A stretch of 40,727 nucleotides of DNA from Candidatus Nanoarchaeia archaeon. Its GTDB lineage: Archaea > Nanobdellota > Nanobdellia > SCGC-AAA011-G17 > JAUYJU01. Shown here piece after piece: positions 14,751 to 21,152 of the stretch. A model generated the notes under the pieces. The model made no database searches, was not told where the DNA came from, and was given only the letters and a program-made list of their open reading frames with translations. The DNA lies in contig JAUYJU010000029.1 in NCBI GenBank assembly GCA_030700155.1, positions 1 through 40,727 on the forward strand, read 5' to 3'. The position numbers and the translations under genes are program-made. Positions within the stretch are counted from its first letter, which is position 1. Each line of letters opens with the position of its first letter.

Positions 14751-15338
14751 TCATTTCAAAGAACTAAATCTTTCCCCAACAATATTCCAATCAACATTGT
14801 CTAAGAAGGTGTTAACATAAGTTGCTTTATCTGTACCATAATCTATCATGAAAGCATGCTCCCAACAATCAAGAGCTAATAATATTTCTTGACCGGCAGG
14901 CAAACCTATATGGTGTTCAAATACAATATAAGTATCAATCCTTTTTTCCACAGGATTCCAAGTAATCAGCACCCATCCAGGTGTTGATGCAGCTGCAGCT
15001 TTGATGTCTTGAACAAATTTATCCCAGGAACCAAATGAGCTTTCAACTGCAGATTTAAAGTCAGATGAAGGTTCTGTTTTAGAACCAGTTAAATTCTCAA
15101 AATATAATTCGTGCAAGAATGTACCGTTCCATGCAACTACTTTAGCCCTCATTAAAGCTGAGTAAGGCGTGTAAGAATAATTTCCAGCTTTCTCAGCTGT
15201 CTCTAAAGCTTTTGTGATTTCAATGTATTTGTTAACATAACCCTTGTATAAACCGAAATGTGCTTCTAGTTGTTTTTCGGAAAGTCCTTTTATTTTTCCT
15301 TTCAAATGCGAGTAATCTTTTACTTTGTGGTCTACCAT
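14751..15338 (-). CDS. Superoxide dismutase (Fe/Mn family)
   Basis: LEAHFGLYKGYVNKY, WVLITWNP, LALDCWEHAFMIDYG metal-ligand motifs. Confidence 0.95.
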   Translation of the reverse strand: MVDHKVKDYSHLKGKIKGLSEKQLEAHFGLYKGYVNKYIEITKALETAEKAGNYSYTPYSALMRAKVVAWNGTFLHELYFENLTGSKTEPSSDFKSAVESSFGSWDKFVQDIKAAAASTPGWVLITWNPVEKRIDTYIVFEHHIGLPAGQEILLALDCWEHAFMIDYGTDKATYVNTFLDNVDWNIVGERFSSLK

Positions 15339-19068: not shown

Positions 19069-19464
19069 ATGCTTTTTAATTTAAAGCTTTTGGTGGCAAA
19101 TAAACTGATTTTTACAGGTTTTTTGGTAGTTTTGCTAGACCAGATTACCAAGTTTTGGATGGAAAATTATCATTCTGTGACCCATAACTATGGTGCGGCC
19201 TTTGGATTATTCCAGGGTGGAAGAATATTATTTATTTTAGTTGGAATTTTAGTTCTTTATTTGATATATAAATGGAGAAATAGTTATAATAATTTTGCTT
19301 TAGGTTTGTTGCTAGGTGGAGTAATTGGAAACTTAATCGATAGAGTTGTTAGAGTATATGTTGTTGATTTTATAGATTTAGGATTTTGGCCTAGTTTTAA
19401 TGTAGCAGATAGTGCTGCAACCGTTGGAGTAATATTATTAATTTATTATCATTGGAAAGATTAA
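19069..19464 (+). CDS. lspA: Signal peptidase II (LspA) family protein
   Basis: LLDQITKFW, HNYGAAFGLF, GNLIDRV (first catalytic Asp), FNVADSA (second catalytic Asp), four hydrophobic segments. Confidence 0.9.
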   Translation: MLFNLKLLVANKLIFTGFLVVLLDQITKFWMENYHSVTHNYGAAFGLFQGGRILFILVGILVLYLIYKWRNSYNNFALGLLLGGVIGNLIDRVVRVYVVDFIDLGFWPSFNVADSAATVGVILLIYYHWKD

Positions 19465-19946
19465 TTTAATTTATGTAGTTGCAAGAAAGATTTAATTTCA
19501 TTTATTAATTCAGTTGCTTCTTCTCCAGCTTCTGTTTGTAAAAGGATTATTCTGTTTTTAATAATAAATTTTTCGTAGATATTTCTTATCATAGGGCTGA
19601 ATTTATCTTTTGGATCTCTTATTAATACCATATCAAATATTATTTCTATAGAACCTTTATTTGATTTTGTTTTAACTCCTTCTTGTTCTATGTCTACTTT
19701 TTGTAATCCTATTAATAAAAAGTTTATATCTAATTCTATTTTAGTATAATTATCAAGATCTTTTTCAGCATGCCAAACTATTTCTACGTGATCTCCTTGA
19801 CCATGATACCTGTATTCTTTTTCAGAGAATTTATAGCCATGATTTTCAAACCAGCGGAATAACATTTTGTACATATCTCCAAGATTGAAGATGTGATCCT
19901 GTTTTAATTTGAATCCGTTTAGTAATTTATCTTTTTGCCCTGGCAT
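19461..19946 (-). CDS. Hypothetical protein (161 aa)
   Basis: Intact ORF, no family recognised. Confidence 0.65.
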   Translation of the reverse strand: MPGQKDKLLNGFKLKQDHIFNLGDMYKMLFRWFENHGYKFSEKEYRYHGQGDHVEIVWHAEKDLDNYTKIELDINFLLIGLQKVDIEQEGVKTKSNKGSIEIIFDMVLIRDPKDKFSPMIRNIYEKFIIKNRIILLQTEAGEEATELINEIKSFLQLHKLN

Positions 19947-19993: not shown

Positions 19994-20554
19994 TTACTTT
20001 ATAGTGAATATTCCTTTTATTAGGTATCTTTTGCCTTTTTCTTGATGATTTATGTACTTTATGAAACTTTTGAAGTTTGGAGCTTGTTTAACTATGGATA
20101 AAGCGTTTGGTATTGAATATTGGTTTAGGTTATTATAGTTTTTATTGAAAAATACTGTGTAACCCTGTTTTAGCTTGTTAAAATCAAAGTAGATAGTTAT
20201 ATTCTTTTTATTTTGTTTATCTTGGAGGAGAGTGTAATTTCCTGCTTTGAATAATTGTGCTTCAGTAGTAATGTTTTTTATTTTTTCTCCTGTGCATTGT
20301 TCTATGAAAATTTTGAATCCTTTTGATTTTATTAATGAATCAAATTGTTTTGGAGTTTTTGCTGAGTAGTAAGAATGCATGTCTGGCTGATAATTTAGTT
20401 TATATTTTAGTTTTGTAATTTGTTTTTTTAGTTTATTGAATTCTTCATGATTAAGGAAATTAGTTAATTGTATATTTGGAATAATGGGATGATTTATGAA
20501 ATCTTTTTTAATTTCTTTGATAACCCTCTGTTTTAAATAAGCTAGGTTAACCAT
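19994..20554 (-). CDS. Catalytically degenerate Tpa1/OGFOD1-like double-stranded beta-helix protein
   Basis: Layout parallels the upstream 2OG oxygenase (VNLAYL...PIIPNIQLTNFLNHEEF...FKAGNYTLLQDKQNKKNITIYFDFN...) but HxD is replaced by QDK and the distal His is absent. Confidence 0.6.
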   Translation of the reverse strand: MVNLAYLKQRVIKEIKKDFINHPIIPNIQLTNFLNHEEFNKLKKQITKLKYKLNYQPDMHSYYSAKTPKQFDSLIKSKGFKIFIEQCTGEKIKNITTEAQLFKAGNYTLLQDKQNKKNITIYFDFNKLKQGYTVFFNKNYNNLNQYSIPNALSIVKQAPNFKSFIKYINHQEKGKRYLIKGIFTIK

Positions 20555-21152
20555 AGAACCACCCTGGAATTGTTCTTCTTTCTTTATTTTTAAGAACTTC
20601 TGCCACTTGATGGAATGATTTTCTTGAAACTTGAAATAAAATTAAATTATTGAATTTAGGAATTATAGATTTTGTTATTTTAATAGGGTGATTGTTCTTT
20701 GTTGAGAAAAATTCTAATTGACCACCATCTTGTTTTTTGAATTCTGATAAATTTAGAATGTAAGCTACTTTTCTTTTTTCCAGTCTATCATCATGCGGTA
20801 AGAGATAACAAGTTTTTTTGTATATTGCAGCAGCAGCACTTGCTGTTTTTACTTTAGATCCTGTGATCTTTTTAATAATCTCCAGAAAGGCTCTTGAACG
20901 GATTAACTTATAGAATTCTTTTAATAGCTCGTTTTTAACAAAATCAAAATCACGTGATTCATACAAACGATATAAGTCCCAGTCTTTATATTTGTATTTT
21001 TCTTTTTTAACTTCTTTTAGTAATAATTTTGCCTTAGATACTTTAAAGAAATCTTTTAAAATGAGGTGTGGAAAGGGTTTGTTTTTATTGAATTCCTTAT
21101 TTAGCTTAGAATAATTCTTTAAGTATTTTTGATTTATCCAGTCTTTTAGCAT
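20547..21152 (-). CDS. 2-oxoglutarate/Fe(II) oxygenase, Tpa1/OGFOD1-like prolyl hydroxylase
   Basis: KPFPHLILKDFF ... YLLPHDDRLEKRKVAYILNLSE ... DGGQLEFFS ... KSIIPKFNNLILFQVSRKSFHQVAEVLKNKERRTIPGWFYG: HxD...H...R catalytic pattern. Confidence 0.88.
   Translation of the reverse strand: MLKDWINQKYLKNYSKLNKEFNKNKPFPHLILKDFFKVSKAKLLLKEVKKEKYKYKDWDLYRLYESRDFDFVKNELLKEFYKLIRSRAFLEIIKKITGSKVKTASAAAAIYKKTCYLLPHDDRLEKRKVAYILNLSEFKKQDGGQLEFFSTKNNHPIKITKSIIPKFNNLILFQVSRKSFHQVAEVLKNKERRTIPGWFYG

Follow-up and report, generated by a model that had tools for sequence, protein, structure and literature searches.

Do archaea possess the prolyl hydroxylase that modifies the eukaryotic decoding centre, and if so, in what form? 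OGFOD1 (human), Tpa1 (S. cerevisiae), Ofd1 (S. pombe), and Sudestada1 (Drosophila) are uS12 prolyl hydroxylases, and eukaryotic enzymes of the OGFOD1 type hydroxylate a proline of this ribosomal protein at the decoding centre (PMC4396695, PMC5690285). The 2015 structural paper on OGFOD1 described the subfamily as eukaryote-only and prokaryotic prolyl hydroxylases as mostly single-domain (PMC4396695). The question is raised by a gene pair in a contig of a Candidatus Nanoarchaeia archaeon (JAUYJU010000029.1, assembly GCA_030700155.1), the whole stretch of which, 40,727 nucleotides, is called the window here. A first-pass annotation of the window had proposed two open reading frames (ORFs) with an 8-nt overlap, and both are present at those coordinates on the minus strand. 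They are referred to as the N gene (catalytic) and the C gene (non-catalytic). The enzyme has been described until now solely as one protein in yeast, flies, and humans; archaea carry its halves as adjacent genes. A probability of about 0.65 is assigned to the reading that the pair constitutes an OGFOD1-type prolyl hydroxylase made as two polypeptides, in which C packs on N and a uS12 proline is the likeliest substrate.

The closest solved relatives of the N protein are human OGFOD1 and yeast Tpa1, and this holds for sequence, profile, and predicted fold. When the N ORF was compared with the whole PDB by single-sequence phmmer, the best match was human OGFOD1 (1.2e-26), followed by yeast Tpa1 (~9e-12), and all other matches stood at 0.04 or above. 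An N profile returned OGFOD1 (3.3e-57) and Tpa1 (3.3e-35), then a bacterial hydroxylase (3.7e-6). The best eight Foldseek matches of the AlphaFold (AF2) model (pLDDT 97.4) were all Tpa1/OGFOD1 (TMq 0.86-0.91), and values for bacterial and PHD-type hydroxylases were mostly 0.63-0.77. For example, the single-domain prolyl 4-hydroxylase (P4H) of Pseudomonas putida (PDB 4j25; 4iw3 with EF-Tu) shares the general prolyl-hydroxylase fold but lies further from N (TMq 0.65-0.75). Pfam searches matched the N ORF to PF13661 (9.3e-29), for which it is the single match in its own genome, and also to PF13640 (1.2e-15). The sole NCBIfam match was NF041706, the YhhC-type 2-oxoglutarate (2OG) oxygenase of cyclophane peptide maturation; its 49 bits fall far under the family cut-off of 150 bits, and it covers the catalytic domain only.

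The HxD...H...R arrangement that the first-pass annotation had seen in the catalytic ORF is intact. H120, D122, H181, and R192 are invariant in 25 of 25 aligned relatives; H120 and D122 correspond to His155 and Asp157 of OGFOD1, H181 to His218, and R192 to Arg230 (PMC4396695). Archaeal N proteins also share with OGFOD1, Tpa1, and Ofd1 the hairpin signature DL[FY]xxxQ and the HDDxLExR, SFHxVxEV, and GWFHG blocks. Among the OGFOD1 residues of the substrate groove and the short beta4-beta5 hairpin, Leu95, Leu152, Asp156, Arg162, and Trp236 are kept in all 32 archaeal N sequences, and Leu95, Asp156, and Trp236 are mostly lost among 11 bacterial homologues. The Tyr96 position is Phe or Tyr in 31/32 archaeal N sequences and Tyr in the window protein. 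In OGFOD1, the variants L95A, Y96A, and L152Y have significantly reduced activity, and R162A causes a partial loss (PMC4396695).

What is the neighbouring gene? The C ORF matches PF10637 (Ofd1_CTDD, the Ofd1 C-terminal domain) at 7.9e-17. A single-sequence phmmer search of the PDB with the C ORF gave nothing convincing; a profile of 23 C homologues found OGFOD1 (1.3e-33), the Ofd1 C-terminal domain (CTD) 6e0t (4.7e-9), and Tpa1 (6.5e-8), with the next match at 0.12. On OGFOD1, the two strongest stretches of this profile are colinear within the CTD (288-386 and 456-547) and flank a disordered acidic region; unlike OGFOD1, the archaeal C half has no acidic insertion. The C model (AF2, pLDDT 91.9) ranked the S. 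pombe Ofd1 CTD 6e0t first in Foldseek (TMq 0.84), and ranks 2-9 were Tpa1/OGFOD1. The ORF thus has the double-stranded beta-helix (DSBH) fold and the OGFOD1 CTD match that the first-pass annotation had expected of it, by Pfam, profile, and Foldseek alike. The catalytic centre, in contrast to that of N, is degenerate: Q111-D-K113 replaces H-D-D, and Ile occupies the distal-His position. The first-pass annotation had noted QDK and the missing distal His in the window gene, and the loss turns out to be general: among 23 aligned C sequences (A2), none has Asp at the Asp-equivalent, and V, T, I, or L are the only residues in the distal-His column. In a wider joint alignment, D stands at the Asp-equivalent column in 4/31 C sequences, and S, K, F, and Y are the four commonest letters of the distal-His column (24/31). 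Judged by its sequence, C is the OGFOD1 C-terminal pseudo-oxygenase domain with its iron site lost. As in OGFOD1, Tpa1, and Ofd1, a catalytic DSBH is partnered with a non-catalytic Ofd1_CTDD DSBH.

The pairing is conserved well beyond the window. Scanning one genome per species with the exact peptide pattern [DG][YF]LLPHDDx[LR], which misses relatives lacking that string, gave 25 relatives; nearly all carried the label Woesearchaeota, and one came from a Marine Group III euryarchaeote. With the catalytic-gene profile, matches came from 50 of the 382 genomes sampled in the phylum of the window; for the phylum to which the Marine Group III genome belongs, the figure was 6 of 198. Neighbourhood conservation, a check proposed with the first-pass annotation, is strong: a C gene adjoins N on the same strand in 42 of 43 distinct catalytic genes, and the remaining one lies at a contig end. 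The two genes can overlap in 38 of the 42 pairs, mostly by 8 or 11 nt, and are spaced by 3 to 768 nt in the other four; a separation of ~770 bp (L024, 4601-5368) occurs in one genome only. The Pfam E-values (9e-29 for N, 8e-17 for C) together with an adjacent pair conserved in dozens of genomes exclude chance.

Unlike the eukaryotic enzymes, which unite both domains and a linker in one polypeptide, the archaeal form, known from sequence and from archaeal hosts, consists of two ORFs and two linker-free polypeptides in all 42 pairs, and no fused form was found among the 43 distinct N genes. A 380-aa open frame in one genome (G440) was considered as a fused form and rejected; it consists of the N domain plus a spurious upstream reading through a GC-rich stretch, and the C ORF is separate. 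Two apparently decayed copies were seen, one in which 69 aa of N remain together with a truncated C ORF (L008, G041) and the other reduced to a 60-aa C fragment (L014, G031), which suggests that the system was lost in some lineages. Viral contigs scanned with the N protein and the N profile yielded no relatives, and phage records gave no match. The plasmid scan returned distant bacterial homologues only. The best of these, proteobacterial and cyanobacterial 2OG-Fe(II) oxygenases (L081, L082, L090-L098), have ~25% identity, are mostly devoid of the hairpin signature and of the terminal GWFHG block, and fall outside the N clade.

How did the two halves arise? The N profile matches C ORFs (best 4e-20, at a sister locus; ~39 bits on the C ORF of the window itself), so N and C are paralogues, and the likeness in layout noted in the first pass is real. 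The phylogeny of both domains was examined in a joint tree of 78 sequences, including 11 bacterial homologues and four eukaryotic domain sequences from three species, all opisthokont. Archaeal N grouped with human and yeast N (100/99), and archaeal C grouped with human and S. pombe C (100/97). The individual clades were supported at 95/81 (eukaryotic N), 97/86 (eukaryotic C), 99/84 (archaeal N), and 98/76 (archaeal C), and 10 of the 11 bacterial homologues fell outside both N and C clades. The approximately unbiased (AU) test rejected a single clade of archaeal N and C (p 0.0004) as well as one of eukaryotic N and C (p 0.0025). The N/N and C/C grouping and these rejections imply one duplication, older than the divergence of the archaeal from the eukaryotic forms. 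A single-domain 2OG oxygenase of a Pandoraea plasmid (L082, 1647-2423) formed a long branch beside the C clade (95/63), and a topology grouping it with the other bacteria was not rejected (p 0.19).

How might the pair act? In the proposed reading, an OGFOD1/Tpa1/Ofd1-type prolyl hydroxylase is made as two co-translated chains, one gene supplying the catalytic half and the other the non-catalytic half. N is expected to bind Fe(II) and 2OG and to hydroxylate a proline with O2. The C protein, a dead DSBH, most likely packs on the beta4-beta5 hairpin face of N and would serve as a docking and stabilising subunit that aids substrate docking, as proposed for the eukaryotic CTD. Formation of an N-C heterodimer is considered probable. 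The likeliest substrate is the decoding-centre proline in the KQPNS loop of uS12, which is probable to a lesser degree. The loop EAKQPNS[AG] is present in all 12 pair-bearing genomes checked (the source genome and 11 others). S. pombe Ofd1 also grips the N-terminal tail of uS12 through a basic-Pro-Gly-Leu-type motif (PMC5690285), and in archaeal uS12 tails the Gly-Leu and the basic residues are mostly kept but the Pro mostly is not. Fe-superoxide dismutase (Fe-SOD) is encoded in 49 of 50 genomes with the pair vs 152 of 332 without it (Fisher p 3e-14, kinship ignored). This co-occurrence, together with Fe-SOD and peroxiredoxin genes near the pair in three loci, fits an O2-using enzyme in cells that would be exposed to O2.

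Other explanations of the pair differ widely in plausibility. That N is a generic bacterial-type P4H beside an unrelated gene is hardly credible. Although PF13640 also matches the N ORF, N sits with OGFOD1 and Tpa1 and apart from bacterial homologues by profile, tree, and fold, as the first-pass annotation had supposed, and the neighbouring gene encodes an Ofd1_CTDD domain by Pfam, profile, and predicted fold. A generic single-domain P4H with no CTD partner was likewise ruled out by the C profile, Foldseek, and the joint tree. A single fused protein produced by programmed +1 frameshifting in the overlap is very unlikely. The frame of C is indeed +1 relative to N in every overlapping pair with an ATG (overlaps of 8, 11, 38, and 47 nt), a relation that was probably inherited along with the overlap. 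However, these pairs have a start codon at the overlap, a common slippery sequence is not visible in the listed junctions, and in four pairs the genes do not overlap at all but stand 3 to 768 nt apart. Moreover, 16 distinct N genes end in [HYND]G-stop, and every one of them has T at the wobble position, the base that gives C its ATG, compared with 67% T in comparable codons (0.67^16, ~0.002, a rough figure because the genes are related), which argues that C initiates its own translation. An assembly frameshift was rejected, as the identical arrangement recurs in independent assemblies. The direction of events is less settled. The first-pass annotation had called the enzyme "split"; the two-gene form stands, but two ancestral genes would account for the tree and the gene boundaries at least as well as fission. 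Taken literally, a split would mean that a fused eukaryotic gene was transferred to archaea and then underwent fission, an account of origin that leaves room for the same function. The patchy distribution (50/382 and 6/198 genomes) is compatible with transfer, and the eukaryotes of the tree are opisthokonts only. Nevertheless, this history is unlikely, given that the sampled eukaryotes do not enclose archaeal N or C in the tree and that no archaeal fusion was found among the 43 distinct N genes. Furthermore, both archaeal proteins start with a WINxxYL-type segment and end past the last core strand, and the eukaryotic linker is missing; complete homologous ends without a linker are as expected of tandem duplicates of a whole gene. 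The simplest reading would be duplication first and fusion later in the eukaryotic line, so that "split" may be the wrong word. The present pair would then show the OGFOD1 domain duplication as it looked before fusion. The fuller proposal, that a surviving pre-fusion OGFOD1 arose by prokaryotic tandem duplication into an active and a dead copy, acts as a heterodimer on uS12, and was inherited or acquired and then fused by eukaryotes, is tentative and somewhat short of an even chance.

The substrate invites another alternative, namely that the pair is a true OGFOD1-type heteromer acting on a target other than uS12, such as a translation factor, an oxidative-stress protein, or a different ribosomal protein. 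The Pseudomonas P4H, of related fold, was solved in complex with EF-Tu (4iw3), and neighbourhood clustering gave no recurrent ribosomal gene; it found no universal partner, and neighbours are shared within small groups only (PCNA and TFIIS-like genes in four loci, SOD in three loci and the window). In three loci (L024, L031, L046), the pair is preceded at a short distance, on the same strand, by genes for Fe-SOD and peroxiredoxin, the latter being identified by Pfam in L024 only and by similarity in the others. Several further observations weigh against the uS12 reading or its details. The uS12 protein is conserved across all archaea, which makes the target proline permissive and not diagnostic. 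The docking motif is partly missing, since its Pro is absent from the uS12 N-termini of most carriers and present only in the Marine Group III locus (L103). In the window N protein, the Gln100 position (Gln in 26/32 archaeal N sequences) is Glu, the Asp140 position is Ser where most relatives keep Asp, and the 2OG-contact Tyr169 is replaced by Asn, at a site that varies across archaea. In contrast, the groove residues important for uS12 hydroxylation (PMC4396695) are conserved, and the uS12 substrate loop is near-identical among carriers. A different substrate therefore appears improbable, and hydroxylation of uS12 by the N-C pair is the preferred reading.

The features of the pair are collected in Table 1. 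In the window, an Fe-SOD gene (14751-15338, minus strand; PF02777) lies on the same strand ~4.7 kb downstream of the pair. A 161-aa ORF directly downstream (19461-19946, minus strand) has a sub-threshold EcoRV-like match alone in Pfam (0.017). A gene for signal peptidase II, LspA (19069-19464, plus strand; PF01252, 6.3e-27), also adjoins the pair; to our knowledge, a lipoprotein signal peptidase is generally unexpected in archaea.

Table 1. Positions of the two genes and of their key residues in the window.
Feature	Position	Strand	Remark
N gene, catalytic 2OG/Fe(II) oxygenase, 201 aa	20547..21152	minus	orthologous to the OGFOD1/Tpa1/Ofd1 N-terminal domain
C gene, non-catalytic DSBH, 186 aa	19994..20554	minus	orthologous to the OGFOD1/Ofd1 C-terminal domain
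8-nt N/C overlap, ATGGTTAA	20554..20547	minus	C start codon within the last codons of N (Tyr-Gly-stop)
N HDD (H120-D121-D122); H120 and D122 are two of three iron ligands	20787..20795	minus	invariant, 25/25
N H181, distal iron ligand	20610..20612	minus	invariant, 25/25
N R192, 2OG carboxylate ligand	20577..20579	minus	invariant, 25/25
C QDK (111-113), degenerate HxD iron motif position	20216..20224	minus	His-equivalent variable, Asp-equivalent lost in 23/23

No report of an archaeal OGFOD1 was found in the open-access literature, most subscription journals being outside the scope of the search, and archaeal PF10637 proteins may be annotated in databases. A widespread two-gene form in archaea contradicts the statement that the subfamily is confined to eukaryotes (PMC4396695). 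It suggests that the enzyme, and perhaps also its oxygen-dependent ribosome mark, is not restricted to them. The existence of a natural two-gene counterpart of the fused human enzyme is good evidence that both domains work together, and the domain duplication can be dated before the archaeal and eukaryotic members of the family diverged. Isolated Tpa1 showed no activity on uS12 peptides (PMC4396695); with the archaeal pair, small subunits without a linker become available for in vitro work. Whether the archaeal decoding centre contains a hydroxyproline becomes a testable question. If the pre-fusion reading is true, oxygen-dependent modification of the decoding centre would not be a eukaryotic invention.
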